Source: a virus. From it: 24,203 nt of DNA. Both the position numbers and the translations under genes were made by a program. Location of the stretch: positions 1-24,203 of IMG/VR virus record IMGVR_UViG_3300009001_000094. One strand, 5' to 3'. The notes under the pieces were generated by a model. The model was not told the DNA's origin. It saw only the letters and a program-made list of their open reading frames with translations, and did no database searches. Each line of letters starts with the position of its first letter. The stretch's first letter is position 1. This document shows positions 5,530 to 22,411 of this stretch, piece after piece.

Positions 5530-7497
5530 ATGTCACAGTTAAATGTAACAGAATTAGATTTTGACGGTATAAAACAAAACCTTAAAGAGTATTTTCAAAC
5601 TCAGTCTGACTTTACAGATTATGATTTTGAAGGATCTGCTTTATCTGTTTTGTTAGATGCGCTTGCATATAATACACACTATAATGCTATACTTGCCCAC
5701 ATGATGGCAAACGAATCTTTTATTGATACTGCTATTAAAAGAAGCTCTGTGGTTTCTCTGGCTAAAAGTTTGGGTTATACTCCTAGATCTAGAAGGTCTG
5801 CAAATGCAACAATTAAGTTATCTATAACTCCTGACCCAAATTATTTGTCATCAAACACATCACTTACGCTGCCTAGGGACCAAGCATTTGTTGCCAACAT
5901 TGATGGTACATCTTATAACTTTTATCCTAGTGACGCTGTAAACGCCGGTGCAGAAACAGTAGATATTAACGGTGTTCCTACTACTCAATTTATTTTTCCA
6001 AATGTAGAAATAACAGAAGGAAAAAGAGTTACCAATAGTTTTATTATTTCAGCCAACAAAGAACTGAATCCTATTGTATTACCAAATGATAATATTGACA
6101 CCACAACTCTCAGAGTAAGGGTTAAAGAAGCCACACACACAAATACTTTTACATCATATACACTATCCAATAGTTTATTGTCTCTTTCAAGCACTTCTAA
6201 AATATATTACCTAGAAGAAAATACTGATGGCAAATATCAAATATATTTTGGAGACAACGTAATAGGAACAAAATTGTCAGCAGGCAATGTTGTTATTGTA
6301 GACTATCTAGTGTCACAGGGTGTTGAGGGAAACAACGCAAAAACATTTAGTTTAACTACTAAATTAACAGGGCAGAATGAAATTGTTACAGGACTTACTG
6401 TTTACAACGGTGTAGATGCTGATGGTAATGCTATTGAGACCGGAGGCAGATCATCCGGCGGACAAAACAAAGAATCAATAGATAGTATCAGATTAAACGC
6501 TCCGAGAAATTATAGTACGCAACAGAGAGCAGTAACTTCTACAGATTATAAAAATTTAATATTAGCAAGTAATTCTAATATACAATCAGTTTCCGTTTGG
6601 GGAGGTGAAACAAACAATCCTCCTGAATATGGCAAAATTTTTATATCTTTAGATCCTATAGAGGGACAAACAATATCACAACAGGATAAAGACAACATTG
6701 TTAATAATATATTGATTCCTAAAGGATCAATTTCAATGATACCTGTTTTTGTAGATCCAGAATACACTTACATTGGTTTGAATGTTGGTGTTGTGTATAA
6801 TCCTAACTTGACTTCTTCTTCTAGCACTGAAATAAAAGGAGCAGTATCTACAGCTATAAATGAACATTTTTCAGATGAACTTAGAGCATTAAATAAGAAT
6901 TTTTATTATTCAAAGATTCACAATGCAATAAAAGAAGTTTCTGATTCAATAGTATCAGTATCTGTTACACCTTATCTACAAAAAAGACTAGCAGTAACTA
7001 AATTTAATTCAGATGTAAATTACAGCTTTAGTTTCAATAGTAGAATACAACCTAGAGAAATTCATTCTACTTGGTTTAATGCTGTTTTGGGTTCGGGTAT
7101 TATAAAAGTTAAATTACAAGATGTTCCTGATGCGGGTGTTGTTCCACCGGAATATAATGGATTTGGTAAAGTTTATCTTGTTGATAGTAGTAATAGACAA
7201 AGAGCAGAAATAGGAACATTAGATTATTCCACTGGTAAAGTAACAATACCTGCAATTAAAGTAAACAGTTTGTATTCAAATGAAACTGTAATTAGGGTTT
7301 CTACTAGACCACATGATGACTCTAAAGATATTTCTACTAGCGTTTTGACTAGAGTTGCTCCTGTATCTACTAGTGCAGTTTTCCCGGCTCCTTCAAAAAA
7401 TACAGTTTTGGATAAGAACGATACTGCTAGTAATGCTGCAACCGGAGCCAGAGAAGGTATTAAAATTACTGTAACTGTAGATAACCAGGGAATCTAA
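5530..7497 (+). CDS. 6: Baseplate wedge protein gp6 (baseplate J-like)
   Basis: This protein of 655 residues is almost the same length as T4 gp6 (660). gp6 forms the continuous dodecameric inner ring that holds the wedges together and belongs to the baseplate J-like family. The N-terminus has the typical helices TELDFDGIKQNLKEYFQTQ followed by DYDFEGSALSVLLDALAYNT and the aromatic/Asn segment where the ring-dimer helices start. The centre holds EENTDGKYQIYFGDNVIGTK, the baseplate J signature, followed by RAVTSTDYKNLILASNSNIQ and SVWGGETNNPPEYGKIFISL, the C-terminal core conserved in J proteins. It starts three bases after gp25, and the stop overlaps the next ATG (TAATG). Nothing is missing. 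Confidence 0.95.
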   Translation: MSQLNVTELDFDGIKQNLKEYFQTQSDFTDYDFEGSALSVLLDALAYNTHYNAILAHMMANESFIDTAIKRSSVVSLAKSLGYTPRSRRSANATIKLSITPDPNYLSSNTSLTLPRDQAFVANIDGTSYNFYPSDAVNAGAETVDINGVPTTQFIFPNVEITEGKRVTNSFIISANKELNPIVLPNDNIDTTTLRVRVKEATHTNTFTSYTLSNSLLSLSSTSKIYYLEENTDGKYQIYFGDNVIGTKLSAGNVVIVDYLVSQGVEGNNAKTFSLTTKLTGQNEIVTGLTVYNGVDADGNAIETGGRSSGGQNKESIDSIRLNAPRNYSTQQRAVTSTDYKNLILASNSNIQSVSVWGGETNNPPEYGKIFISLDPIEGQTISQQDKDNIVNNILIPKGSISMIPVFVDPEYTYIGLNVGVVYNPNLTSSSSTEIKGAVSTAINEHFSDELRALNKNFYYSKIHNAIKEVSDSIVSVSVTPYLQKRLAVTKFNSDVNYSFSFNSRIQPREIHSTWFNAVLGSGIIKVKLQDVPDAGVVPPEYNGFGKVYLVDSSNRQRAEIGTLDYSTGKVTIPAIKVNSLYSNETVIRVSTRPHDDSKDISTSVLTRVAPVSTSAVFPAPSKNTVLDKNDTASNAATGAREGIKITVTVDNQGI

Positions 7498-10400
7498 TGG
7501 CACACACTGTCCCTACTAATTTAGGATATGTTGCATCCATAAATGTTACTAATGGCGGCACCGGTTACGCTTCAAATCCTACAATTACTATAGATGCACC
7601 CACACTTCCGGACGGGGTACAAGCTACAGCAACTGCTACCGTTGTTAATGGTGTAATCACTAATATCAATGTACAAGAAGCTGGAAGCGGTTATGATGTA
7701 AATTTAACCAGTATTGGTATTACTATAGGCGCTCCTGCAAATGGAGATACTGCAACAGCAACCGTTACTTTAGGTTATTATTACGGCACTGCTGAGCCTT
7801 ACGATACAAAATATAAAAACCTTTCAAAATATTCTCTCCCTGAATTTATTAGATACGATTATGATACGTTTAAAACTTTTGTAGAAAATTATTTTGATTA
7901 TATGGATCAGACCGGAAATCCCGGTAATATTCTTTTTAACTCCAAATATTTTGATATAGATGATTTAACCGCTATTGAATTAAATAAGAAAGCTTTAGAA
8001 ATAGCACAAGATTTTCCTCGTATTCTTGCAGTAGATTCTAAAATACTGTTTAAACATATTAAAACTTTGTATGAAGCAAAAGGTTCTGAAAGAGCTATTA
8101 AGGCATACTTTAAACTAGTATATGACGAAGATGTTACAATCGAATACCCAACAACAAATTTGTTGAGAACTAGCGACGGCACATGGCGTCAAAGAAATTC
8201 AGTTAGAGCAATAGAAGGGTATAACGGATACGAACCTACTAATTTAGATAGTAAAGAAATAGATATCTGTTATTATTCTACGGAAAATTTTTATTATACT
8301 ACGCCATCTCAAGTATCAGTTTTAACAGGTTCTTGGACTAGCTCTATACTTTCTACTACTGTAACAGCTCCCGGATTAAATGGTTCAGCACTTACTGAAG
8401 TTTCTATAGGACAAGAATTAAGAGATTCAAATGGAGCCGTAATAGGAACAGTAGTATCTATTACAGATGATGATAATATTGAATTAGATATTCCGGCTCT
8501 AATAAATCTAACAACAGCTACTATATCTGCTTATACACAGGTAGTACGAGCATCAAATACAATCATAAAGAAAATTCAGGCAAAAGTAGAAAATACTATT
8601 AAGGTTGGTAACACTCAGGTATTAAATAATTTGGGTGCAGTAACTACACCACAGTCTTATGAATTATTTTTAGGAAATTTTTCAACAGCTATAACTAGCA
8701 TACCAGGCCCCGGTGATGCGGCAACCGGTACTCTTAATATTGAAGATGGTGTTCTTAGCACTGTCATTCCACAAACAGCAACAGCAACCGATGCTGGAAG
8801 AGCAAGTGGATTATATTCGGTATCAACATTTACAACTTCAGGCTCAGGATCCGGAGCAATTATTACAGTAGAGGTATCAGGTACTGGTCTAGCAACCATT
8901 CCTTTTGGTGGGTTATATAACAAAGGTAAAGACTTTGCTGTCAATGATACTATAACAATAGCATCAGCTGACATTGGCGGTGGCACTACTGATCTAGTTT
9001 TAGATGTGACTGCTATTAATGACGGTGTAATTAAATCTGTAACCATGACCAATACTGGTTTTGGATATATTGCTGCGCCAGCAGGCACAATTACTGACAC
9101 GACTGGTACGGGAGCAGATGTTGTTCCTTATGTTGAGAATGGAAACGTATTGTCCTGTACTATAAACAGAGGCGGTTCTGGTTATAGTAACAATGCAACC
9201 ATTTCTTTCGACACAACTGGGTTAGAGACCTTTATTGTACTTAGAGATGAGTTACCTCAACAAGCAAACCAAAAAGCAGTCTTAAAAAGAATAGCAAAAA
9301 GTATTTCAGCTGCTGTTCCTAGAAGCGGTATAGCAACCATAGATTCTTTATCGGCTGCTGATGCAAGTAGAGCAGCCGGCACATATACAATAACTTCTTC
9401 TGATTGGACTTCAGACGGTACTGGCGCAAACGCAGAGTTTACTGTTACAATAGACGGAACAGGAGCGGCTGCTGTTACTATAGATACTGCCGGCAATGAT
9501 TTTATTGTAGGTGAAACTATTACTATTGCAGATTCAGATCTTGGCGGAGGCGGAGCTGATGATGTTAGTTTTGATGTAGCCACACACACCACAACAGATT
9601 GGGGATTTAAAGAAGGTCAATCATATAGAGTTAAGGAAGGTTCTACACAAGGAACTATTATTAGAGTACAGAATTTAAATAACAATAAGGTACCCACATC
9701 ATGGACCATTGTGTCTCCGGGTGAAGGTTGGTCTTCTGCTACTGTGGACAATACACTAACATCTAGTATAGGTGAAAAAGTAGATGTAACAGTAACTACC
9801 GGTTATTATTACAATTATGTTGGAGAGTTTATAGGAACTAGAGGCCAGCTTTCTACAAAAAATGTTCTTAATGATAATAGAAGAAATCAAATCTATTCAT
9901 ACATCATCAGATCAGGCCTTTCACAAAACATTTGGAATGCTGGTTTTAGAAAACATATGCACCCTGCAGGTAAAGAAGTATTTGGTGATATTGTATCTAG
10001 CTCTTCTATTTTAACTGATATAAGATATACTGTACCTGAAGGTCTTAGTATTTACAAGTTTATTACTGAGGACTTTACACTTGCTAATGACATATTAACC
10101 ATACGTTACGAAAAGGTCTTAGAAGATACTGTTGTTGCGACAGAATTATTAAGTGTTACATACTTTAAAGATTTTGAAGAAGAAGTAACAGCAGAAGAAG
10201 GGTGCAGTCCTCTATATGTAGATACTGGTTATTGGTATGGATCATATGCAGGATCGTGTAACGTATATTTTGATGTTGTTAAACCCATAGAAGAACCTTT
10301 AACAGCATCAGAAACTTTTGTCCAGATTATGACTTGGACCAGAAGTTTTAATGAACCATTGACCGTAACGGAAAATGTTGATATAGTAAATGTAATACCC

Positions 10401-10763
10401 GGATTAACACTATCAGACAGTGTTTCAACATCCGAATTTTTTGAATATTCTCGTACTTTAGAAGATATTGTTTATACAGACGATTCTACTGATTTTACTA
10501 TAGGTAGTTTTAAAAATATAAGCAATAATGTCAATAGCACTGAAGATTTAATTATAAATATACTGAAAGAAACAGAAACAGCAGAAACAGCAACCACAAC
10601 AGATGTTCTTGTTTCTGTTATAACGTGGAATAGAGATTTTACAGATAGCACTTCAGGTGTCTCAGATGCTGGAATAATTATAGCAGGACAAAATTATGTA
10701 GACCCATCATATTTGGCCACACCTGACCAATATATTACTGGGGGAACATTAGCAACATTTTAA
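7497..10763 (+). CDS. Large baseplate wedge/virion protein in the gp7 position
   Basis: This protein of 1088 residues lies between gp6 and gp8, where T4 carries gp7 (1032 residues), but sequence similarity to T4 gp7 is not obvious to me. Residues 17-92 hold two Gly-Gly/Gly-Ser-x-Gly-Tyr hairpins. Residues 113-217 are helical (LPEFIRYDYDTFKTFVENYF, then DFPRILAVDSKILFKHI and LYEAKGSERAIKAYFKLVYD), a segment widespread in marine T4-like and giant phage structural proteins. Residues 273-337 form a Trp-centred beta module shared with gp8 and the 2450-residue protein. Residues 434-507 and 623-696 are two copies of one module. Residues 929-1063 are short degenerate repeats. The start overlaps the gp6 stop. 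A role as outer wedge scaffold is inferred from position; it could also be a tail-fibre attachment protein. Confidence 0.78.
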   Translation: MAHTVPTNLGYVASINVTNGGTGYASNPTITIDAPTLPDGVQATATATVVNGVITNINVQEAGSGYDVNLTSIGITIGAPANGDTATATVTLGYYYGTAEPYDTKYKNLSKYSLPEFIRYDYDTFKTFVENYFDYMDQTGNPGNILFNSKYFDIDDLTAIELNKKALEIAQDFPRILAVDSKILFKHIKTLYEAKGSERAIKAYFKLVYDEDVTIEYPTTNLLRTSDGTWRQRNSVRAIEGYNGYEPTNLDSKEIDICYYSTENFYYTTPSQVSVLTGSWTSSILSTTVTAPGLNGSALTEVSIGQELRDSNGAVIGTVVSITDDDNIELDIPALINLTTATISAYTQVVRASNTIIKKIQAKVENTIKVGNTQVLNNLGAVTTPQSYELFLGNFSTAITSIPGPGDAATGTLNIEDGVLSTVIPQTATATDAGRASGLYSVSTFTTSGSGSGAIITVEVSGTGLATIPFGGLYNKGKDFAVNDTITIASADIGGGTTDLVLDVTAINDGVIKSVTMTNTGFGYIAAPAGTITDTTGTGADVVPYVENGNVLSCTINRGGSGYSNNATISFDTTGLETFIVLRDELPQQANQKAVLKRIAKSISAAVPRSGIATIDSLSAADASRAAGTYTITSSDWTSDGTGANAEFTVTIDGTGAAAVTIDTAGNDFIVGETITIADSDLGGGGADDVSFDVATHTTTDWGFKEGQSYRVKEGSTQGTIIRVQNLNNNKVPTSWTIVSPGEGWSSATVDNTLTSSIGEKVDVTVTTGYYYNYVGEFIGTRGQLSTKNVLNDNRRNQIYSYIIRSGLSQNIWNAGFRKHMHPAGKEVFGDIVSSSSILTDIRYTVPEGLSIYKFITEDFTLANDILTIRYEKVLEDTVVATELLSVTYFKDFEEEVTAEEGCSPLYVDTGYWYGSYAGSCNVYFDVVKPIEEPLTASETFVQIMTWTRSFNEPLTVTENVDIVNVIPGLTLSDSVSTSEFFEYSRTLEDIVYTDDSTDFTIGSFKNISNNVNSTEDLIINILKETETAETATTTDVLVSVITWNRDFTDSTSGVSDAGIIIAGQNYVDPSYLATPDQYITGGTLATF
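8313..8507 (+). repeat. Shared Trp-centred beta module, copy A (gp7-position protein)
   Basis: Residues 273-337 contain LTGSW, then IGQELRDSNGAVIGTVVSIT and DDDNIELDIP. The same order of motifs occurs in gp8 (12064-12261) and in the 2450-residue protein (15401-15612). Copy A diverges most in the stretch after Trp280. Confidence 0.7.
8796..9017 (+). repeat. Internal duplicated ~70-residue module, copy 1
   Basis: Residues 434-507. Begins RASGLYS, includes GSGSGA, VSGTG and DFAVNDTITIASADIGGG, and ends VLDV. It pairs with 9363-9584; the first Arg and final Asp are 68 residues apart in both copies. Confidence 0.75.
9363..9584 (+). repeat. Internal duplicated ~70-residue module, copy 2
   Basis: Residues 623-696. 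Begins RAAGTYT, includes DGTGAN, IDGTG and DFIVGETITIADSDLGGG, and ends SFDV. Between the copies lie two Gly-x-Gly-Tyr hairpins and a short region with LRDELPQQANQKAVLKR. Confidence 0.75.
10281..10685 (+). repeat. Degenerate ~19-residue tandem repeats at the C-terminus of the gp7-position protein
   Basis: About seven units in residues 929-1063, each built on (hydrophobic)-x-E/D-x-L/V-T/S-x-T/S-E/D, as in IEEPLTASET, FNEPLTVTEN, LTLSDSVSTSE, LEDIVYTDDS and FTDSTSGVSD, usually followed by a hydrophobic strand and sometimes Thr/Asn-Trp-(Thr/Asn)-Arg. Units diverge strongly, and the DNA copies are not alignable by eye. Confidence 0.6.
10553..10560 (+). promoter_or_regulatory. TATAAATA late-promoter-like sequence within the gp7-position gene
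   Basis: Exact TATAAATA, 229 bases before the ATG of the 150-residue gene. It lies inside coding sequence (it encodes Ile-Ile-Asn) and could be chance in A+T-rich DNA. Confidence 0.22.
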
Positions 10764-10789
10764 TACAAAATAAAATTTGGAGATAAACA

Positions 10790-11242
10790 ATGTTTAATAA
10801 AGACACAATGAAAGCGACAGGTATGGTGGATATTGTTATCCGCGATGCCGATGGTCGTATTAAAGATGAGCGCCATGTACCTAACTTGGTCGTTGATACT
10901 GGTTTAGATTTTATCGCATCTCGCATGAAAGATGCAACTGCCACTGCTATGTCGCATATGGAAGTTGGTGAAGGTACTACTGCAGCAGCTAGTGGTGACA
11001 CTGCACTTGAAACACCTTTTGGCACACCTGCTATTGTTGCATTAACATCAACAACAGTTACTAACAATGCTGTAGCATATGTTGCTACTTTTGGTGCTGG
11101 CGATGGCACGGGCGCTCTTACAGAAGCAGGCATTTTTAATGCTGCTTCAGCCGGGGATATGCTTTGTCGTACTGTGTTTTCAGTAATTAACAAAGGCGCT
11201 GCAGACAGCATGACAATCACCTGGACAATTACTATTTCTTAA
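10790..11242 (+). CDS. Small structural-type protein between gp7-position gene and gp8
   Basis: This protein has 150 residues. The N-terminal MVDIVIRDADGRIKDERHVP leads to NLVVDTGLDFIASRM, followed by a Gly/Thr-rich segment (VGEGTTAAASGDTALETP) and a C-terminal strand pair with LTEAGIFNAASAGDMLCRTV and INKGAADSMTITWTITI. I recall similar proteins in many tailed phages, usually annotated as virion or tail-fibre-related, with no proven function. The start has GGAG seven bases upstream. All five Arg codons are CGC or CGT, whereas the flanking genes mainly use AGA, and the gene looks richer in G+C. This suggests later acquisition or selection for high expression. T4 has no equivalent at this point in its baseplate operon. 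Confidence 0.8.
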   Translation: MFNKDTMKATGMVDIVIRDADGRIKDERHVPNLVVDTGLDFIASRMKDATATAMSHMEVGEGTTAAASGDTALETPFGTPAIVALTSTTVTNNAVAYVATFGAGDGTGALTEAGIFNAASAGDMLCRTVFSVINKGAADSMTITWTITIS

Positions 11243-11253
11243 TAGGCAGATAG

Positions 11254-13227
11254 ATGGCACTTCTTCTAACAAGATTGGGTAAAGTAGAATTAGCTCGTAC
11301 TTATTTTAGAGATATAAAAAATAATCACGATCTATACTACTTTACCTTTGGTAAAACAGATGAGTGGGCGGATGAATCTAATCCAGATACTCCTGTGGAT
11401 AGCACCAAAGATATAACCGCCTTTCGTAAAAACATGATGTTTATACAAAGAATAACAGGCACCAATGTATGTCATCTTGTTAGAAGAATTAATTGGACAA
11501 GTGGAACAACATACGATAGATATGATGATGTTTATTATTCAAGTCAAGCAGCAACCGAAAAATCTTGGCAAACAGCCACACACCTAGGTGATGCTAACTT
11601 TTATGTAATGACGGTAGATTACAATATCTACAAATGCTTGGATAATAGAAATGAATCTGGAATTGTAGTACCTAGTACAGATCCGCCCACTACAACAGGT
11701 TTGGAAATTGAAATTACAGGTGATAATTATAAATGGAAATACATGGGTACTGTTTCAGAAGGAGACAGAACTAGATTCTTAGATGATAATTGGATACCTG
11801 TAAGAAAAGTAGCGGGTTCAGCTGACGATACATTCGATATAACAGGAGAAATTGATGATGTTACGGTTGTTGACGGCGGCACGGGTTACAGCAGTGGGCT
11901 GGTAATCGTTGTACAGGGTGACGGTTCGGGTGTAGCAGCAGCATCAGCTTCTTTGAATAGTAGTACAGGAGCAATAGAAACAGTAACGCTAACATCTTCA
12001 CAAACAACAGAAGCAGGTTCTGGCCAAGGATATTCTTTTGCAATATTAACACTTTTGGACAACATTAGTCTTGCCGGAACTTGGAGTTATGACACTTCTA
12101 GCAACATATTAACAGGTGTCAATGGAGATGCTACAACAGCAACTTCTCCTTCTACCGTGGGTAGAATAATAAAAGACGAAAACAGACAGGTTGTGGGTGT
12201 AGTAGCAAATGTTGTAGACGACAATACTATTCAATTAGCAGCCAATGCTGTAGTTTCATATAGAGACCCCAATACAAATGCGTTGTTGACCAGTGTTACG
12301 GGTAAAACTCTTTCTTCAGACCACGGCGGAAATGATGCTGAATTGAAAGTAAACTTAGCAGACCCTGACAGTGTACTGACTCTTGCACAAAAAGCTGTTG
12401 AGGATGAATCATCTAATATTGCAGGACAAATTGATAGGATTGAAGTAATAGACGCCGGCAGTGGTTTTGCCCAGGGTGATACTTTAGTTAGTATCTCCGG
12501 AGACGGACAAGACGCTACGGCTGTTGCTGTTATTGATGCCAATGGTGGGGTAAGTAAAATTATAGTAAATACTCAAGGTACTGGGTATACATATGCTGAT
12601 GTGACAGTTTATTCTAGTTCTGACCCTACTAATTTTGTATACGGCAGGGCTGTCATAGGTCCTATTTTAGGACACGGAAACAATATGGTAAGAGAGTTAT
12701 TTTCAACATCATTGGCTCTATCAATATCATTATCAGATCCCACTAATGATGATTTGATTTTGAATAATGATTTTAGACAAATTGGACTGGGTAAAAATTT
12801 CTTAGATCTTAGTGGAAATGTTTTTACTTCTACTACAGGAAGAACAACATACAAAGTAGAATTAGCAAACGCTACAGAATATGCTAAGTGGTCATCATTA
12901 GATTTAACAACAGATGATACACTAACTGGCACCAATAACATAGTAACTATGGGTTCTGGTGGAACAGCTAGGGTTGTTCAGGTTTTAGAGGATGGTAATG
13001 GTTACTATCTTTATTTACAAGCTATAACAGCTACCGATATAGCCACAACAGCTCCTTTTGATGATATAATAGGTAGTGCAGATACTACTACCGGTAGCGG
13101 TATAAATAGTGTGACTGCTCCTGAGTTTAGTTATAAAACAGGAGAGATTGTCTATATGGAAAACAGAGGCGGTATCAGCAGACAAGCTGACCAGGCAGAA
13201 GTAATTAAGACATTTATAACATTCTAA
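11254..13227 (+). CDS. 8: Baseplate wedge protein gp8 with large internal insertion
   Basis: This protein of 657 residues is about twice T4 gp8 (334). gp8 is a dimer on the outer wedge that joins gp7 and gp10 to the rest. The N-terminal ~190 residues are gp8-like: VELARTYFRDIKNNHDLYYF, then TFGKTDEWADE, AFRKNMMFIQRI, DYNIYKCLDN and YKWKYMGTVSE. The C-terminus is also typical (GEIVYMENRGGISRQADQAE followed by a Phe-rich end). Residues ~200-460 are extra: Gly-x-Gly-Tyr/Phe hairpin modules at 201-268 and 392-455 flank a Trp module (271-336) that is also found in the proteins on either side. The ATG follows the upstream stop by 11 bases. The identification is safe; the insertion boundaries are estimates. 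Confidence 0.9.
   Translation: MALLLTRLGKVELARTYFRDIKNNHDLYYFTFGKTDEWADESNPDTPVDSTKDITAFRKNMMFIQRITGTNVCHLVRRINWTSGTTYDRYDDVYYSSQAATEKSWQTATHLGDANFYVMTVDYNIYKCLDNRNESGIVVPSTDPPTTTGLEIEITGDNYKWKYMGTVSEGDRTRFLDDNWIPVRKVAGSADDTFDITGEIDDVTVVDGGTGYSSGLVIVVQGDGSGVAAASASLNSSTGAIETVTLTSSQTTEAGSGQGYSFAILTLLDNISLAGTWSYDTSSNILTGVNGDATTATSPSTVGRIIKDENRQVVGVVANVVDDNTIQLAANAVVSYRDPNTNALLTSVTGKTLSSDHGGNDAELKVNLADPDSVLTLAQKAVEDESSNIAGQIDRIEVIDAGSGFAQGDTLVSISGDGQDATAVAVIDANGGVSKIIVNTQGTGYTYADVTVYSSSDPTNFVYGRAVIGPILGHGNNMVRELFSTSLALSISLSDPTNDDLILNNDFRQIGLGKNFLDLSGNVFTSTTGRTTYKVELANATEYAKWSSLDLTTDDTLTGTNNIVTMGSGGTARVVQVLEDGNGYYLYLQAITATDIATTAPFDDIIGSADTTTGSGINSVTAPEFSYKTGEIVYMENRGGISRQADQAEVIKTFITF
12064..12261 (+). 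repeat. Shared Trp-centred beta module, copy B (gp8 insertion)
   Basis: Residues 271-336: LAGTWSYDTSSNILTG, then VGRIIKDENRQVVGVV and VVDDNTIQLAANAVV. It aligns by eye with 15401-15612 over nearly the whole length. Confidence 0.75.
13101..13108 (+). promoter_or_regulatory. TATAAATA late-promoter-like sequence before the 2450-residue gene
   Basis: Exact T4 late promoter core near the end of gp8, 132 bases before the ATG at 13241. It overlaps codons for Gly-Ile-Asn. A separate late transcript for a large gene is plausible, but the site could be chance. Confidence 0.32.
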
Positions 13228-13240
13228 GGTATTAAAAAAA

Positions 13241-16200
13241 ATGGCACTCAACTTATCAACTTCACCCTATTATGACGATTTTGACGCGACAAAAAATTAC
13301 TCTAGGGTTTTGTTCAAACCAGGCGTTGCTGTACAAGCAAGAGAGCTAACACAGCTCCAAACTATACTGCAAGATCAGCTTTCTCTGATTTCTGGGTATA
13401 CGCTAAAAGAAGGCGCGATAATTTCTGGGTGTGAAGAAAAGCAAACGGCCGTACCTTATATAAAAATTGATGATACTGATGCCGCTACACAAACAGTAGC
13501 AGACAGCGATCTTCCAAATTTTATTGGAGAAACAGTAGTAGGTTCACAAACAGGACTTAAAGCAACAATCGTAGACACTCGTCCTGGTAGAGAAAACGCA
13601 CATCCAGATTCAAAAACTTTATATCTATCTTATGAAAACGGTGGCGGTGCTACTAATACAGCACTAAGTGGTTTTGTAAATAATCCTGACGATCCCAACT
13701 ATGATGCTGAAGTGCTCGCACATTTTAAAGCAGGAGAAACACTTACTGTAACTTCACCCGGTGTTTGGAAAGGAAGAACATTTGTAGTTAATACTTTTGT
13801 TTCTTCACCCGAAACAATGGCAGACAGATATTATGGTTACGCACATAGAATTGCGTTGTCAGATGGTTTGCTTTATGTTAAAGGACAATTTGTAAGAACT
13901 GGTAAAATAGGTTGTTATGTTGACAAATTCAACCCAGCAGTAGCTAGAAAAATAGGATTCTTAGTAACAGAATCTATTGTACAGTCAGATGACGATGCTA
14001 CACTTTTGGATCCTGCATCCGGTACATACAACGAAAACGCACCCGGTGCTGATAGATATAAAATTTCAGTAGCTCTCAAATCATACGCTTTAGATGCTGC
14101 AATACCGGACAACTTTTTTGGATATGGTTTATATGAGAGAGGACGTTTCAGTAGAAACAAAATTAAAAACGATCCTCTAGCCAAAATAGGCGACCAAATA
14201 GCAAAAAGAGCATATGCCGCTAATGGTAACTATATTGTTAACGGTTTTTATACTACTGTCAGAGAACACTTAGATGATGGAAATGGTAATGGAGGTTTGT
14301 TTACTAAATCTTCAAATCCTCTTACAGTAAGAGATCTTTTAGGCGATCCTTCTAAACTAGTAGCAGAAATCACTCCCGGTAAATGTAATGTAGGCGGATA
14401 TTTAAGAACACTACAGGCTAAAAAATTAATTGGATTTGATAAACCCACAGCCACAACATCTACTACAAAAGAGATTACAACTGCTTACGGAAACTATGTT
14501 ATTGTTGATGAGCTAGCTGGCAACTGGAACCTAGGTTCTATTGATGCTGGTGCTGATGGAATCATTGATTTATATGACACAGCAACAAATGCTAGTACCG
14601 GAAGTAAATCTGGATCAACGGTTGCAGGTAATAAAATAGGTGAAGCTAAGGTAAGGCAAATAATATATCATAGCGGTACTATTGGTACTGCAAGCTGTCA
14701 GTACAAAATGTATCTTTATGATATAAAAATGACAGGCACCACTTCATCTACTGAAAATTTTAAAGATGTGAGAACCTTTTATTATAATAATGGATCAGAG
14801 GATGCTTTTGCGGATCCTGTTTTGAATAGTGGCGGCAATGCTGAAATTTTAGATCCTGATTATAATAAACTCCTTTGGAAACTGCCTAGATCGTTTATCA
14901 AAACATTAAATACAGACGGCACCTTTTCAGGAACACCTAACATTAAATTTACATACATGGCAGAAATTTCCGGTCTTACACCGGCTGCTTTGCCTTCAGG
15001 TGCCTTTAATATAGTTCCTCCTGTATCAGGAGATACTTTTCCATGGTATAACGGAAGTGCAGATTCAAATCTAATACTAGTAGCAACAAGTAATTTTACC
15101 TCTGCTTCTCTTGGTTCAGTAGTAGTTGGACAAATCATAGACGGTGATAGTGTAAAACAAACATCTACTTCAAACTCTATTGCAATAGATATTGGTAATG
15201 TAACATCCGGAACTCCGGAGTTTAAAGCATATGCTTTGACTAAGACTTCAATATCTTCTGTTAAGGGAAATGTAAAAGAAGCTGTAAAAAATGAATTAGT
15301 AAAAATTAATACTTCTACACATTTAAATTCTACTTTGGGTGTTTACAGTTTAGGTTTTCCTGACGTATATAAACTAAATTCTGTTACTGCATATGATGGA
15401 GTAACCTTAACAGGCACTTGGACATACGCTACAAACAGCACAGCGCTAACAGGTTCTGGTGGTGCAGCAACTACCGAACTAGGTGTTGGTGTTTTGGTTG
15501 TAGATTCTAATGGAAACGAAGTAGGTACAGTATCATCTATAACTGATGATGATAATGTTGTTTTGACTTCAAATGCTACTGTTGCTGGCACAGGCGCAAC
15601 AGTTAAAGGGGCATTTATTACTTCAGACGGCAAAGACGTAACAAAAGATTTCTACTTAATTACAAACCAAAAAGACAGTTCATATGGTTTGGCATCTATT
15701 AGACAAAACATTAATAGCTCTTTGGATTTAACTACTTGGAAATATTTGTTAATAGAATTTTCAAGGTTTAGAAGAGCGAGTACCACAGACTACAACTTTA
15801 CCACTGTAGATTCATATAGTAAGCCAGCAAACGAAACAGACGCCACTGCAAGTGATGAAGTATATTTTCAGGAAATTCCTTTATATGAATCTTCTAAATA
15901 TGGTACTGTTGACCTAAGAGATGCTATAGATTTCAGACCTTTTGCTACGGCAACAGCAACAGCATCCTCAGGTTCTTTGTTGAACGCTTCAACCAATCCT
16001 AGTAATGTAGAAACAATTAACTTTACTAATGTTAAGTTTCCTTCACCGAGTGACACATTTAGTACAGATATAACTTCATATTTGCCACAAGGGTTTCGCT
16101 GTGTAGTAGACAATGAGGGAGACATATCTATTAGCGCCTCTCCGGCAGCAACTAAAGTAGATGTAGCGGTTCCTGACAATGATACTTCTATGACAATAGC

Positions 16201-19200
16201 AACATTTATTGCTCCTCCTTTTCCTTGTCTTTCAGCTAGAGCAGCACAAGTTTATAACAGGCCCGATCTAGCACTTAAAGTTTCTAACTTAGAAAATCCT
16301 CATTATACAATGAGAGACATTGGCCAATTAGAAAAAAGAATAACAAACATTGAATACTATACTTCTCTTTCAATGTTAGAAAAAGAAGCAAGAGATCAAT
16401 TAATACTTGATGACATAGGCATTGATAGATTTAAAAACGGATTGTTGGTTGATTCTTTCAAAGGATATGCTGTAGCAAATAAAGGACATCAGGACTATTG
16501 GGCAGCCATTGATACAAATAGGCAAATGCTTAGAGCAAAATACCATGAAGCTACTACAGATTTTAGAGCAGTAGCACTTAACGATAGTGATAATATTCAG
16601 GCAGCACAAACTGGTCCTGTACTACATTGTGGTGCTGCCCAAGTTGTTTATATGGAGCAACTTCTTGCAACGAAATCTGATCCTATTGTTTTAGAATTGT
16701 TGTATGATGTTGAGGATGCTGGCTCAGAAACCCGAGATAACACTAATCCCAATCCCGGTTCAGGCGGTTCAGGTGATGGCACTGACATTTCAGGTTCAGG
16801 TAACACTGGCAATAACACCACCACCATTGTTGATGACGGCCCACTCAATGATCCTGCACCGAAGTATTATGTTTCTGCTGACACTACAACCGTTCAGAAC
16901 GGACACGATTTTACAGTTAGGGTTGAAATTGTTAACCATGTACCGGGTACTAATTTTAGTTGGCAGATATACGATACTGCCACGAATCTGGCATCACAAT
17001 ATATTACTCCTAACACCTTGAACAATTTAAATGTGGTTCCTTCAGATGCAGGTAACTATGAAGCCACATTTAACTATACTGCGGTGGCTGCTGGCACATC
17101 TTTAGCTGCAAGTTCTGTCACCTTTAGACTGAGTATAACTGATAGTGCAGGAAATCAAACTCAACAGCCTTCAGTCGTAATTAATTTGGCTAAAGTAGAT
17201 TCTGCTGTACGACCCGTACAGTGTGGGCCCGGATCAAGATTGGATCCTGTTACTAATACGTGTGTTCCTATAAATCAAAGTGACGATCAGGCAATTGGAA
17301 CATTGACCTTGAATCCTTCATTTGACCAGTGGCACGATTCAGAAGAAAATGAAATCGTACAAGAAGATAAAACAGGTGAATATGACCAGTTTAATTACAC
17401 GGGTGCTTGGACTGCAACTTGGGAAGGTTGGACAGATATTGATCCTATTCTTTCACAGTCTACTAGAACATACGAAGAACAAACAGGTCTCCGTAGTGAA
17501 AGAGAATGGTTTGTAGAAGAATCTTCCGGTGAGCATTATGGCGATTACGGTGTAGAAGGTTATTGGGAACAACAAGTAGCAACCATGACCAAATTTTCTG
17601 AAACTACATACAATAGAGTAGACAGAAAGTATCAGCACGGATATGAAGTTTATACAGGCTCTCTACCAGGACCTATTCAGGTAAAAGGATATAAAGGTGA
17701 GACAACCTTAATACCTGGTGTACGAGCATACGCAAGAAAAAGAGCTGTAGACTTTAGTGCAAATGGTTTGGCAAAAAATACTCTCTATGAATTAAGTGTC
17801 GGTGAAATTTCTAAAGGCAAATACACTTCTGATTCTGCTGGCTCGATTGTCGGTACTTTTCAGATCAATGCTAAAGAAATTGAAATTGGTACATCTGAGG
17901 TACGCCTTGTGGCCACCGGCAATACTAGTAAATGGACAGCAGCTAACTCTTTTGCTGTAGCTTATTACACATCTGTATTTGATGGGACACAGGTAACAGA
18001 TGTGTATTTACCGTATGACATTAGTCCACCTAAGCCTCCGAAAAGAAAAGTTACCGGTCCCATTGTTTCTACTGATCCTTATCAATACGATAAACAAAAA
18101 ACAGATGTGGGTTCGTATGAGGTGTATATTGGAGAACCGGTTATTGTATATAAAGGCAATTCACTGTATAACGTAAACGGTTACGGATATGTAGCAACAA
18201 CTTCAACAACAAATTGGAACACAAATGACCTAATTGAAGTAACACAAATAAGCCCGAATACAGGAACAGCTATTACTGTAACAGCTCCTAATACAGGCAA
18301 TACCGCAGTTTCAACTATAGACACAAACAATGATAACCCGTATTCTACTGCTTACAAGCCGACAGTAAATACTAGTTCGGGTGTTGCTGTTGCAGATACT
18401 AATACTAACTATACTACTGGATCTCAAACAACTCCTACGGTTAATCCGATATTTTCTACAACAGAATTTGATTTTACTTCATTGAATTCTGATGCTATGG
18501 CTGCTGAACAGGCTCAAATGGCAGCACAAGCAATGAAGTTGGCAACAGGTTGGAACGGCGGAATGTGTAACGGCTGGGATCCTATGGCTCAAACATTTTA
18601 TGTAGAAAAACATCCTGGTGGTATTGTTGTTCACTCTGTCGATCTTTTCTTTAGTTCTATTTCTTCAGAAGCCAACAACAACGGTATCACACTGGAAATT
18701 AGAGATGTTGTAAACGGCTATCCTGGAAACAATGTTATCGGAAGTGTTAGTAAGAAAAGAAGAGATTGTAAAATAGCTTCCTCTACTAATGGTGTTCCTG
18801 ATGTACATCTTGGCACAACCTTTACATTTGAATCACCAGTATACCTAGAAAATAATACAGAGTATTGTCTTGTTCCTCTCCCTGACAAAAATGACCCTGA
18901 CTATAAAGTTTATATTGCTGAAATGGGTCAACCAGAACTTGGTGGTGATGGTAAGGTAGTTAGCTCACAGCCTAGCACAGGTGTACACTTTACTTCTGCT
19001 AATAATAGAACTTGGACAGCACATCAAAATCAAGATATGATGTTTAGGATTAAAAGAAATTCTTACAGAACCAATACTGAGTATACTGCTACACTTAAAA
19101 ACAAAAATACTGACTGGTTAGAGTTTACAGAATCAACTGTTTATGATCCAGGTACTTTCATATGGAACATTACAACAACTCCTAGTAATTTTACAGCAGA

Positions 19201-20593
19201 TGCTTCGATTGCAAATTTAACAGGAGCGGCTGTTACATTTACTGATGAATCTCAAATTTTAAATATGACAATGACAGCAAATACAGATGCTTTAGGACAA
19301 GTTACTGCTCTCACTGTTACTAGTTTAGGCACTGAAGATATTAACAAAACTCCTGTAATAGAAACAATAGGCGGTGTGGATGTTACTTCTTTATATACTA
19401 CTAGTCCAATTAGATTAAATAGAGCAAGGGTTACTAGGTATTCAGAATCGTATAATACACATGAAGTAGAAGTAATACAGGGCTTTTTTACTACAGGTGC
19501 CACAATAACGAATGGTTCAAGTAGTGTAACTGTAGCTACTATACATGATAGAATAATAGACGCATATACCATAAAAGCTAGGATGACTAATTTTGGTAAG
19601 TTCGGGACAATAATTCCTAGAATTTATCTGCAATCAACAGATCCTACTTCTACTAGGACAACTACGTTTAATAATTCTACAATGACTGAATTTTATATGA
19701 ACAAAACAAATGAATTAACTAATCCTGCTAAGATATATAGCTATTCAAATTTATTTGATGGATCTCGTGGTGGTACTTGTACAATTCAATTTGTAATGAA
19801 AACAGCAGCTGAGAATATGAGTCCTATGATAAATGCTGACACCTTGTCAATGTTTTTGACAACTAATGTTATAGATTCTGTTTCCACAGGAGAAGTTACT
19901 ACGGTTGGTGGTAACCCTAATGGTTCAAGATATATAACTAAAAAGGTTATTCTTGCAAGCGGCCAAGAATCAGAAGATTTCAAAGTTTGGTTGGATAATA
20001 AAATTCCTAGTGTTTATGACTCAGCTACACAAGCATATACTGATGGTGCTGTTGAAGTTTATGTCAAGCTTCAGGCAAAAGAAGATCAGGATGTTAGCTT
20101 CTTAGAAGATATAAGTTGGAGAAAACTTGATATTGAGACGCAACCGAATAACCCAACCGGCGGTTGGGGAGAGTTTGTTTATAAACTTCCCACTAAGACA
20201 GCTGGTTTTGGATTGAACGGTTCTGGTCAGTTAGAGTACGATGTTAATTCTATAGCTAGTGTAGGAATTACTTCCGGCGGAACAGGATATGAGATCGGTG
20301 ACGTTCTACAAATATCTGGTAATGGTTCTGGCGGCCATGTAAGAGTCACTGCTGTAAACACAGGTGCCATAACTGCTGTAGAAATTTTGAATGGTGGAAG
20401 ATACCATGATACACCTACAGCAACTTGTAGAGGCACAGGCGGAAACAATGATGCAGTATTCTCATTGACACTGAACACTACTACATATACTGGCTTTAAA
20501 GCATTTGCTGTTAAGATTGTACAAATGAGTTCTAATTCTTCACAGATACCTAAGTCAGCAAATCTAAGAGCATACGCTCTATTGGCGGCATAA
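13241..20593 (+). CDS. Giant mosaic virion structural protein (DUF4815-type)
   Basis: This protein of 2450 residues is typical of marine T4-like phages but very long. Residues 7-47 (SPYYDDFDATKNYSRVLFKP with AVQARELTQLQTILQDQL) match the DUF4815-type N-terminus as I recall it. Residues 721-790 are the Trp module shared with its neighbours. Residues ~1000-1112 are a helical core (MRDIGQLEKRITNIEYYTSL, then RFKNGLLVDSF). A Gly/Ser/Asn linker (1167-1201) precedes an Ig-like beta domain (1207-1321) and a paired-Cys segment (C1328, C1341). Residues ~1350-1545 are Trp/Tyr-rich. DPMAQTFYV at 1780 starts a tail domain common in such proteins. Residues 2338-2412 hold a Gly-Gly-Thr-Gly-Tyr hairpin. It lies after gp8, where T4 has gp9 and gp10, so it is probably a peripheral baseplate or fibre-network protein. 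Confidence 0.85.
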   Translation: MALNLSTSPYYDDFDATKNYSRVLFKPGVAVQARELTQLQTILQDQLSLISGYTLKEGAIISGCEEKQTAVPYIKIDDTDAATQTVADSDLPNFIGETVVGSQTGLKATIVDTRPGRENAHPDSKTLYLSYENGGGATNTALSGFVNNPDDPNYDAEVLAHFKAGETLTVTSPGVWKGRTFVVNTFVSSPETMADRYYGYAHRIALSDGLLYVKGQFVRTGKIGCYVDKFNPAVARKIGFLVTESIVQSDDDATLLDPASGTYNENAPGADRYKISVALKSYALDAAIPDNFFGYGLYERGRFSRNKIKNDPLAKIGDQIAKRAYAANGNYIVNGFYTTVREHLDDGNGNGGLFTKSSNPLTVRDLLGDPSKLVAEITPGKCNVGGYLRTLQAKKLIGFDKPTATTSTTKEITTAYGNYVIVDELAGNWNLGSIDAGADGIIDLYDTATNASTGSKSGSTVAGNKIGEAKVRQIIYHSGTIGTASCQYKMYLYDIKMTGTTSSTENFKDVRTFYYNNGSEDAFADPVLNSGGNAEILDPDYNKLLWKLPRSFIKTLNTDGTFSGTPNIKFTYMAEISGLTPAALPSGAFNIVPPVSGDTFPWYNGSADSNLILVATSNFTSASLGSVVVGQIIDGDSVKQTSTSNSIAIDIGNVTSGTPEFKAYALTKTSISSVKGNVKEAVKNELVKINTSTHLNSTLGVYSLGFPDVYKLNSVTAYDGVTLTGTWTYATNSTALTGSGGAATTELGVGVLVVDSNGNEVGTVSSITDDDNVVLTSNATVAGTGATVKGAFITSDGKDVTKDFYLITNQKDSSYGLASIRQNINSSLDLTTWKYLLIEFSRFRRASTTDYNFTTVDSYSKPANETDATASDEVYFQEIPLYESSKYGTVDLRDAIDFRPFATATATASSGSLLNASTNPSNVETINFTNVKFPSPSDTFSTDITSYLPQGFRCVVDNEGDISISASPAATKVDVAVPDNDTSMTIATFIAPPFPCLSARAAQVYNRPDLALKVSNLENPHYTMRDIGQLEKRITNIEYYTSLSMLEKEARDQLILDDIGIDRFKNGLLVDSFKGYAVANKGHQDYWAAIDTNRQMLRAKYHEATTDFRAVALNDSDNIQAAQTGPVLHCGAAQVVYMEQLLATKSDPIVLELLYDVEDAGSETRDNTNPNPGSGGSGDGTDISGSGNTGNNTTTIVDDGPLNDPAPKYYVSADTTTVQNGHDFTVRVEIVNHVPGTNFSWQIYDTATNLASQYITPNTLNNLNVVPSDAGNYEATFNYTAVAAGTSLAASSVTFRLSITDSAGNQTQQPSVVINLAKVDSAVRPVQCGPGSRLDPVTNTCVPINQSDDQAIGTLTLNPSFDQWHDSEENEIVQEDKTGEYDQFNYTGAWTATWEGWTDIDPILSQSTRTYEEQTGLRSEREWFVEESSGEHYGDYGVEGYWEQQVATMTKFSETTYNRVDRKYQHGYEVYTGSLPGPIQVKGYKGETTLIPGVRAYARKRAVDFSANGLAKNTLYELSVGEISKGKYTSDSAGSIVGTFQINAKEIEIGTSEVRLVATGNTSKWTAANSFAVAYYTSVFDGTQVTDVYLPYDISPPKPPKRKVTGPIVSTDPYQYDKQKTDVGSYEVYIGEPVIVYKGNSLYNVNGYGYVATTSTTNWNTNDLIEVTQISPNTGTAITVTAPNTGNTAVSTIDTNNDNPYSTAYKPTVNTSSGVAVADTNTNYTTGSQTTPTVNPIFSTTEFDFTSLNSDAMAAEQAQMAAQAMKLATGWNGGMCNGWDPMAQTFYVEKHPGGIVVHSVDLFFSSISSEANNNGITLEIRDVVNGYPGNNVIGSVSKKRRDCKIASSTNGVPDVHLGTTFTFESPVYLENNTEYCLVPLPDKNDPDYKVYIAEMGQPELGGDGKVVSSQPSTGVHFTSANNRTWTAHQNQDMMFRIKRNSYRTNTEYTATLKNKNTDWLEFTESTVYDPGTFIWNITTTPSNFTADASIANLTGAAVTFTDESQILNMTMTANTDALGQVTALTVTSLGTEDINKTPVIETIGGVDVTSLYTTSPIRLNRARVTRYSESYNTHEVEVIQGFFTTGATITNGSSSVTVATIHDRIIDAYTIKARMTNFGKFGTIIPRIYLQSTDPTSTRTTTFNNSTMTEFYMNKTNELTNPAKIYSYSNLFDGSRGGTCTIQFVMKTAAENMSPMINADTLSMFLTTNVIDSVSTGEVTTVGGNPNGSRYITKKVILASGQESEDFKVWLDNKIPSVYDSATQAYTDGAVEVYVKLQAKEDQDVSFLEDISWRKLDIETQPNNPTGGWGEFVYKLPTKTAGFGLNGSGQLEYDVNSIASVGITSGGTGYEIGDVLQISGNGSGGHVRVTAVNTGAITAVEILNGGRYHDTPTATCRGTGGNNDAVFSLTLNTTTYTGFKAFAVKIVQMSSNSSQIPKSANLRAYALLAA
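15401..15612 (+). repeat. Shared Trp-centred beta module, copy C (2450-residue protein)
   Basis: Residues 721-790: LTGTWTYATNSTALTG, then VLVVDSNGNEVGTVSSIT and DDDNVVLTSNATV. It combines the N-terminal half seen in gp8 with the C-terminal half closest to the gp7-position protein. Confidence 0.75.
16739..17263 (+). other. Linker, Ig-like domain and paired-Cys segment within the giant virion protein
   Basis: A Gly/Ser/Asn/Thr-rich linker (residues 1167-1201) leads to a beta-sandwich-like domain from P1207, with alternating strands FTVRVEIVNHV, FSWQIYDT, GNYEATFNYTAV and VTFRLSITD to about 1321, resembling Ig-like domains of phage surfaces. It ends with Cys-12 residues-Cys around GPGSRLDPVTNT. 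The linker DNA uses more GGT/GGC and ACC codons than its surroundings. The domain family is inferred from the strand pattern only. Confidence 0.6.
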
Positions 20594-21322: not shown

Positions 21323-22411
21323 ATGCGACCACTAAGAATTAAAGCATCCGGGAATCCGATTACTTCTGGTAATTTCCAAGGTCTCCAAGAGATGACCGAC
21401 ACAGAGATAGAACAGTATCTATCATATGTAATTACTAACAAGTATGCAACAGACTGGGACGGCACCCTTACCGGTGATCTGAATATGGATACTGCAAATG
21501 CTCTTAGTGGTTCTTCTATAGGCACTTTTGCTGACACTCAAAGAACTGAAGCTGTTGGTACTCACCCAGCAACAGGCGCTACATCTACAGTTAATACCTA
21601 TTATTTTAAACAAGTAACTTCAGCTGCTACAGAAAGTATTACAAATCGTCCTTTGGGTTATGATAGTGGAATAAAAGAGTTTACGGATTCTGGTCTAGAC
21701 ACTGACATATTAGACAAAGTTATAGAAGATATGGTAAGCGAAAGCGATTACACCGTTGGTCAGTTTAAACTTGCAGCATCTGCTCCTTCTGGTGGTACCT
21801 GGACTTCTCGATATACAATTACCGATACACATTTAGATGGTTCTAACACTATATATCTTTGGCAAAAAACAGCGCCAACAACATCAGCAAATAGTGATCT
21901 AGCTTCTCTGAAACACGATAGTGGTGTAAAAATGATGACCTCTGCTGAAATTGAGCAGATAGTTCCTAACTTTAGGAATAGAATTGTTGAAGGATATGGA
22001 TCAACTCCTGGTGTTGGATGTTACAAGATACAGTCAACCTCACCTGCTGAAACAGGTACTTGGACACAAATGGGTGACGCAGCAGGCTTTTCTGATACTA
22101 GACACCAAGTAGCTTCTTCTACTTATTCAGGAAGCTATACTGGGACATTCTCAGGTGATTACACCGGAGCATATGAAGGGCCAGCTGACTATAGCGGAAC
22201 ATACACCGGAGATTATGTATTATATTACTCTGGTTATGTTGGTGGAACTTTCTCAGGAGATTACACCGGATTTTATACAGGTGTTACTGATTATTCTGGT
22301 ACTTATACCGGATTTTATTCTCAAGACTTTACCGGCAATTATTCAAGTGACACAATTAAAGCAGCTACAGAAACAGTTTCTACAATTAAACTGTGGTTAA
22401 GAACTGCTTGA
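21323..22411 (+). CDS. Probable tail fibre protein with C-terminal Tyr-Ser/Thr-Gly repeats
   Basis: This protein has 362 residues, with an AGGAAC ribosome site ahead of the ATG. The N-terminus (MRPLRIKASGNPITSGNFQG, then MTDTEIEQYLSYVITNKYA) is a pattern I recall from marine phage tail proteins. Two alternating units follow: SGIKEFTDSGLDTDILDKVI, mirrored later by SGVKMMTSAEIEQIVPNF, suggesting an internal duplication with helical pieces between beta segments. Residues 268-343 are aromatic-Gly repeats, and a short KLWLRTA tail ends the chain. It is the last gene before a strong promoter on the same strand, so it probably closes the tail operon. Receptor binding is possible but not shown. Confidence 0.82.
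   Translation: MRPLRIKASGNPITSGNFQGLQEMTDTEIEQYLSYVITNKYATDWDGTLTGDLNMDTANALSGSSIGTFADTQRTEAVGTHPATGATSTVNTYYFKQVTSAATESITNRPLGYDSGIKEFTDSGLDTDILDKVIEDMVSESDYTVGQFKLAASAPSGGTWTSRYTITDTHLDGSNTIYLWQKTAPTTSANSDLASLKHDSGVKMMTSAEIEQIVPNFRNRIVEGYGSTPGVGCYKIQSTSPAETGTWTQMGDAAGFSDTRHQVASSTYSGSYTGTFSGDYTGAYEGPADYSGTYTGDYVLYYSGYVGGTFSGDYTGFYTGVTDYSGTYTGFYSQDFTGNYSSDTIKAATETVSTIKLWLRTA
22124..22351 (+). repeat. Tyr-Ser-Gly/Tyr-Thr-Gly tandem repeats in the fibre protein
   Basis: Residues 268-343 are built from units such as YSGSYTG, TFSGDYTG, YSGTYTG and TFSGDYTG. Two stretches encoding FSGDYTG (22148 and about 22251) differ at only one base in 21, so part of the array duplicated recently. The array is regular in aromatic-x-Gly spacing rather than in unit length. 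Confidence 0.82.

Follow-up and report, generated by a model that had tools for sequence, protein, structure and literature searches.

The best-known examples of domain exchange among bacteriophages concern receptor-binding fibres and Ig-like accessory domains. The Ig-like domains of phages are described, where the original survey is cited, as small accessory β domains that occur in many unrelated virion proteins and are exchanged horizontally (Fraser et al., 2006, cited in PMC8718954 and PMC10684548). They are found in tail tube and tail sheath proteins, where weak carbohydrate binding or stabilization has been proposed as their role (PMC9230969). The same study (Evolution of Phage Tail Sheath Protein, 2022, PMC9230969) describes additional domains of tail sheath proteins, mostly Ig-like sandwiches, as extra β domains that lie outside the conserved sheath core and away from the tube. 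Domain shuffling in phage tails is already known from a study of domain mosaicism in phage proteins, according to which shuffling is ongoing and strongest among tail proteins, i.e., fibres, spikes, and baseplate components (Nat Commun 2023, PMC10684548).

The module described here is likewise a small β domain found in several virion proteins; however, it differs from the phage Ig-like domains in having no Pfam Ig match and in its predicted fold, a small barrel with a short helix. Whereas the sheath study deals with the sheath alone, a single cassette family occurs here in the sheath, in gp7, in gp8, and in a giant baseplate protein, and in one sheath slot it alternates with GGTGY repeats or with nothing. 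The mosaicism study used known ECOD domains and its main text does not cover the tail sheath, whereas our barrel has no Pfam family above the cut-off. In the families phrog_1980, phrog_17834, and phrog_28473 and in the distal tail protein gp20 (PDB 23gd), the profile-matched barrel is situated at or near the N-terminus, while the copies described here lie inside the sequence of structural proteins, as insertions. Within the literature searched, an un-named barrel cassette common to sheath, wedge, and giant proteins, with its empty sites mapped, seems to be new.

The Baseplate Gene Cluster of the Window

The window is the whole 24,203-nt IMG/VR record IMGVR_UViG_3300009001_000094 and contains a T4-type baseplate cluster; its complete DNA sequence gives zero matches to annotated phages. 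Profile matches assign a tube cap (gp48-like), a gp53-like wedge protein, a tail protein, a gp5-like hub, gp25, and gp6, followed by a gp7-like wedge protein, a 150-aa protein, gp8, and a 2450-aa VrlC/DUF4815 protein (Table 1). VrlC is regarded as a component of the double-layered baseplates of pelagimyophages and cyanomyophages (PMC7029224). The tail sheath gene of the window phage lies outside the 24-kb contig. The gene order of the cluster recurs in contigs G001 (L176) and G004 (L177), the closest relatives with conserved synteny, whose gp6 is 50-55% identical to that of the window.

The 150-aa protein encoded between gp7 and gp8 (10790-11242) is among the best conserved of the cluster, being 69-76% identical in relatives (69-75% in G001 and G004). 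It corresponds to phrog_5417, a family of unknown function, with a weaker match to a tail-fibre profile, and is matched in at least 595 viral contigs. A 362-aa ORF further downstream (21323-22411) carries irregular C-terminal repeats rich in Tyr, Gly, and Thr (YTGxFSGDYTG..YSGTYTG); it is kept in L176 and L177 at 54-67% identity and has no family match.

Table 1. Positions of the baseplate genes, insertions, module copies, and GGTGY-type repeats in the window.
Feature	Position	Strand	Extent	Evidence
gp7-like baseplate wedge protein, host of copy A	7497..10763	+	1088 aa	PHROG phrog_2885/17744; Pfam Baseplate_wedge PF23786 above cut-off
GGTGY-type repeat pair, gp7 N-terminus	7530..7769	+	residues 16-52 and 58-95 of the frame starting at 7485	HMM, E 3e-14 and 6e-7
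Insertion A, missing in gp7 of L176 and L177 (approximate edges)	8283..8564	+	~94 residues	alignment with L176 and L177
Predicted barrel module, copy A, in gp7	8313..8507	+		Smith-Waterman, BLAST, sheath-only profile
gp8 baseplate wedge protein, host of copy B	11254..13227	+	657 aa	phrog_438, E 1e-94; alignment
GGTGY unit in gp8, upstream of insertion B	11851..11949	+		E 6e-9
Insertion B, between GGTGY unit and following gp8 sequence, missing in relatives (approximate edges)	12043..12324	+	~94 residues	alignments
Predicted barrel module, copy B, in gp8	12064..12261	+		Smith-Waterman, BLAST, sheath-only profile
GGTGY units in gp8, downstream of insertion B	12430..12621	+		E 2e-11 and 4e-6
Giant VrlC-like baseplate protein, host of copy C	13241..20593	+	2450 aa	phrog_358, E 5e-234; DUF4815 PF16075, E 1e-30
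Insertion C, missing in the nearest relatives' giant protein (approximate edges)	15395..15622	+	~76 residues	alignment with L176/L177
Predicted barrel module, copy C, in giant protein	15401..15610	+		Smith-Waterman, BLAST, sheath-only profile; AlphaFold2 model
GGTGY-type unit near C-terminus of giant protein	20252..20332	+		E 6e-5

Three Homologous Segments in Adjacent Structural Genes

A sequence-only reading of the window had proposed that one β module recurs in gp7, gp8, and the giant protein. The translations of the three segments are as it described them, and the shared stretches LTG.W, DSNG, and GTV.SITDDDN are present as quoted; solely the end given for copy C (15612) overruns a codon, the 70-residue segment stopping at 15610. 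Smith-Waterman scores are 100 for A-B, 135 for A-C, and 132 for B-C, compared with shuffle means of 29-34 (z 13-17), and 0 of 2000 shuffles reach the scores of the pairs. Pairwise BLAST among the copies gives E-values down to 2e-14, and tblastn of copy C against the window record recovers C itself, A (1.5e-12), and B (5e-11) only. A profile built from seven tail-sheath copies of other phages and zero window sequences detects C (1.4e-18), A (9e-17), and B (2.1e-9) among the six-frame ORFs of the window and nothing else below E 1, while reversed decoys score E 0.3 or worse. The three segments thus detect each other far above chance, as the sequence-only reading had anticipated, and, judged by these comparisons, A, B, and C are homologous and constitute one module family.

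The module is rich in Thr, Gly, Ser, and Asp, and one might therefore suspect that low-complexity or compositional convergence of such β segments produced the likeness in place of a true module. Against this stand the shuffles, the clean decoys, and the independent profile, as well as the invariant Trp, Gly, and Asp positions of the module alignment and the insertions, which are exact relative to related proteins; convergence is ruled out for practical purposes. When A, B, or C is searched singly by tblastn against annotated phages, one weak match to a Bacteroides phage is obtained; the distant kin of the module were found by way of orthologous giant proteins and sheath copies.

Predicted Fold and Family Relationships

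Copy C was modelled with AlphaFold2 from an alignment of 23 copies that includes the A and B rows. The model (pLDDT 91.8, pTM 0.78) is a small barrel with short strands and one short helix. In an AlphaFold model of gp8 the B region has pLDDT values of 27-44, the insertion being too shallow in the alignment; by homology, A and B would be expected to adopt the fold of C. Compared with viral models, the copy C model matches domains inside larger virion proteins, among them proteins of 571 and 1380 aa (TMq 0.89), a baseplate wedge subunit, a structural protein of S-TIM5, and, in BFVD, the tail fibre of Leptospira phage LE3 (E 8e-4, TMq 0.74). A Foldseek search of the model against the PDB yields no match with E <1e-3, and in VIA the best PDB hit is the LKA1 tailspike at Z 8.4, followed by the Mystique tail tube at Z 7.4. 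Since common small barrels such as ATP-synthase domains score in the same range, homology to PDB entries is not claimed from Foldseek or VIA. Ig chains are absent among the listed Foldseek and VIA rows, and a Pfam scan of 23 module members finds no family above the cut-off and lists no Ig family at E up to 1.

At the level of sequence profiles, the nearest solved protein is the distal tail protein gp20 (PDB 23gd, residues 4-59, E 5e-5), with a weak match to the N-terminus of the F2-pyocin side fibre (25ve). Three tail-fibre or tail families match the module, i.e., phrog_1980, phrog_17834, and phrog_28473. The tail-fibre profile phrog_1980 matches 15 of the 23 module members (best 4.5e-11), although copy C of the window alone is not among the matches. 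Matches to tail-fibre profiles fall at the profile start, at positions 6-62 of phrog_1980 and 7-65 of phrog_17834. The module is part of a broad family of phage barrels, which also covers the start of tail-fibre profiles and the N-terminus of the distal tail protein.

In fibres and tail proteins of this kind, the matched N-terminus is usually the virion-attached end, and the module could consequently be thought of as a docking element, a knob for protein-protein contacts by which one and the same fibre or decoration protein would be attached at several points of the tail, rather than as an adhesin for the host surface. However, no partner is known, and the module occurs sporadically and in a lineage-specific manner, although a docking site should track the gene of its ligand. 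We consider docking a serious though less probable alternative and favor an accessory cassette.

Insertions and Empty Sites in Relatives

In L176 and L177, a short loop occupies each site. Their gp7 reads '..CYYST' and then '..KIEAEV' at the A site, gp8 of the relatives reads 'GYSFA' and then 'GGGSGA..' at the B site, and the C site of the giant protein follows the LNSVTAY strand. No barrel is present in gp7, gp8, or the giant protein of G001 and G004. The inserted cassettes (75-95 residues, in frame) are slightly longer than the barrel itself (~60 residues).

A sample of close relatives consisted of 80 contigs fetched with the 150-aa protein plus L176 and L177, and ORFs with both conserved cores were counted (in gp7, these cores lie at ~140-260 and ~760-850 in relatives). 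The barrel is present in three of 37 gp7, two of 34 gp8, and one of 23 giant ORFs, and its carriers are limited to the species group of the window (L178, L179) and L184. The gp7 of L184 (L184 4741-7971) carries the barrel twice, at the A site and again at a new position (661-715), whereas gp8 and giant ORFs of L184 are present and have no barrel. The A-site copy of L184 is 60% identical to A and is its sister in the tree (99/97). Variable presence of the module among related phages, which the sequence-only reading had proposed as a sign of shuffling, is therefore borne out by these counts and by the empty sites.

Gp8 of relatives is mostly 460-570 aa long vs. 657 aa in the window, and distant gp8 relatives (~460-500 aa) are without a region of ~190 residues that contains B. 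The claim that B lies in a region absent from gp8 of T4 agrees, indirectly, with this comparison, the whole segment being missing in 22 of 22 distant gp8 relatives aligned. Four gp8 ORFs among L178-L257 have 739-1005 aa instead of the usual 485-566 and carry no barrel, and a large insert is likewise found in the 848-aa gp8 of L019. Gp8 appears to harbor a hot spot for insertions.

Instead of being gained in the lineage of the window, the modules might be ancestral and might have been lost repeatedly in relatives. The barrel family is indeed old in the giant proteins of distant relatives (positions 650-660) and is found in gp7 and gp8 of L056. However, A, B, and C group with sheath copies and not with the 650-type giant copies, all three are absent in the nearest syntenic and most close relatives, and insertion sites differ between lineages, which makes repeated loss improbable and favors insertion.

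GGTGY-Type and Other Repeats in the Host Proteins

The host proteins had been considered otherwise unrelated, which is only partly right, as gp7, gp8, and the giant protein also share GGTGY-type repeats (Table 1). The unit of the giant protein is recovered by blastp with the gp7 and gp8 repeats (E 4e-4 and 3e-5). Among close relatives these repeats are nearly universal, occurring in 37 of 40 gp7 and 36 of 38 gp8 ORFs. A further GGTGY-type repeat is situated in gp7 at 9030-9221. The same protein contains a third kind of repeat, a module of ~80 residues present twice (~8803-9000 and ~9345-9580) with the pattern SGxYsV.TF/DWTS.GSG..xTV..NDFxVxxTITIAxxDxGGG, and a similar stretch occurs in gp7 of L176.

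The Module in Tail Sheath Proteins and Other Hosts

The closest copy first found outside the window, in L008, is located inside a tail sheath protein, encoded next to tube and portal genes, so that the host proteins of the module comprise gp7, gp8, the giant protein, and the tail sheath. Among 82 sheaths, a single slot between '..GNSLKVSFADS' and 'W.Y...FD.AP', which shows a weak correspondence to gp18 of T4 near residue 245, contains the barrel in nine, a GGTGY repeat in 21, a short stretch in six, and other sequence in 46 cases. In four of the short sheaths the slot can be seen to hold no insert; L113 and L119, which belong to these four, share 65-66% identity with the barrel-bearing sheath of L008. 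G001 has the barrel in its sheath though none in its baseplate genes, and the sheath slot of G004 is empty. A diverged barrel in some of the 'other' slots is suggested by hhalign (probability 38%) and is not claimed.

In more distant relatives, copies of the family are found at many positions of the giant protein and in gp7 and gp8 of L056, and contig L012, with four copies in two proteins, provides an independent multi-copy case. The VrlC protein of Pelagibacter phage Mosig also bears the barrel. Bacteroides phage BS162P1 (OP172706.1) encodes a 573-aa 'hypothetical protein' (L063 5434-7155) with a barrel 61% identical to the sheath copy of L062; it matches a tail-sheath profile and is probably an unannotated sheath.

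History of the Copies

In phylogenetic trees, which are based on ~68 columns and contain several weak branches, A, B, C, the two L184 copies, and the sheath copies of L008 and L066 form one group (100/97) apart from the 650-type giant copies. C is thus not a plain ancestral copy of the distant giants. Within the group, whose internal order is poorly resolved, the sheath copies are interspersed with A, B, and C. Third codon positions are 37-58% identical between copies and hence near saturation. None of A, B, and C is therefore a recent duplicate of another, and each may have been acquired independently; very recent tandem copying is rejected on the same grounds. As A is orthologous to a gp7 copy of L184, it predates the species. 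Within the species, A is 88% identical vs. 93% for gp7, and B 92% vs. 94% for gp8, indicating similar rates of divergence.

The three genes adjoin, and the AU test does not reject a single A/B/C clade (p-AU 0.377; 0.285 with the L184 copies added), which would fit direct duplication within the three neighboring baseplate genes only, with C (or A) copied to the other two and the sheath copies being unrelated transfers or derived. In contrast, the sheath copy of L066 is closer to C (62% identity) than are A (~51%) or B (~44%), and the nesting of the sheath copies, the nearly saturated third positions, and the age of A all speak against such a course, which we regard as doubtful. The presence of the same subfamily in tail sheaths, with L008 and L066 nested among A, B, and C, implies that exchange is wider than among neighboring baseplate genes. 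Shuffling or duplication among neighboring tail genes, as proposed by the sequence-only reading, is therefore supported as far as shuffling is concerned (homology, empty sites, variable presence), whereas the restriction to neighboring baseplate genes is not.

A Probable Interchangeable Cassette of Contractile Tails

A, B, and C very probably represent one small β-barrel domain that serves as an interchangeable accessory cassette and has been moved by recombination between virion tail genes. In the lineage of the window, the cassette was inserted in frame, at loops, into three baseplate proteins, and members of the same subfamily fill the insertion slot of the sheath in close relatives. Recombination would carry it between virion genes, loops distant from assembly interfaces would tolerate it, and it would be exposed on the assembled tail. 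As relatives lack the module, it is presumably not needed for assembly. The gain might consist in weak surface binding or in virion or tail stability, as is thought for phage Ig-like and extra sheath domains (PMC9230969). By this analogy, the module may be an accessory on the tail surface that the phage can do without and that serves adhesion or stability, and it might give the baseplate a common function.

Going further, T4-like phages might keep a small pool of surface cassettes, barrel and GGTGY, common to sheath, gp7, gp8, and the giant protein, from which the whole outer face of the tail would be diversified within the genome, with the abundant sheath as likely reservoir. We propose this tentatively, as a possibility somewhat short of even. 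For annotation, the barrel is a warning that matches to such modules tie together unrelated structural genes. For the phages, it would represent an un-named domain that is exchanged among central structural components of contractile tails, the sheath included, and it may offer a concrete and testable system for the diversification of the outer surface of T4-like tails.
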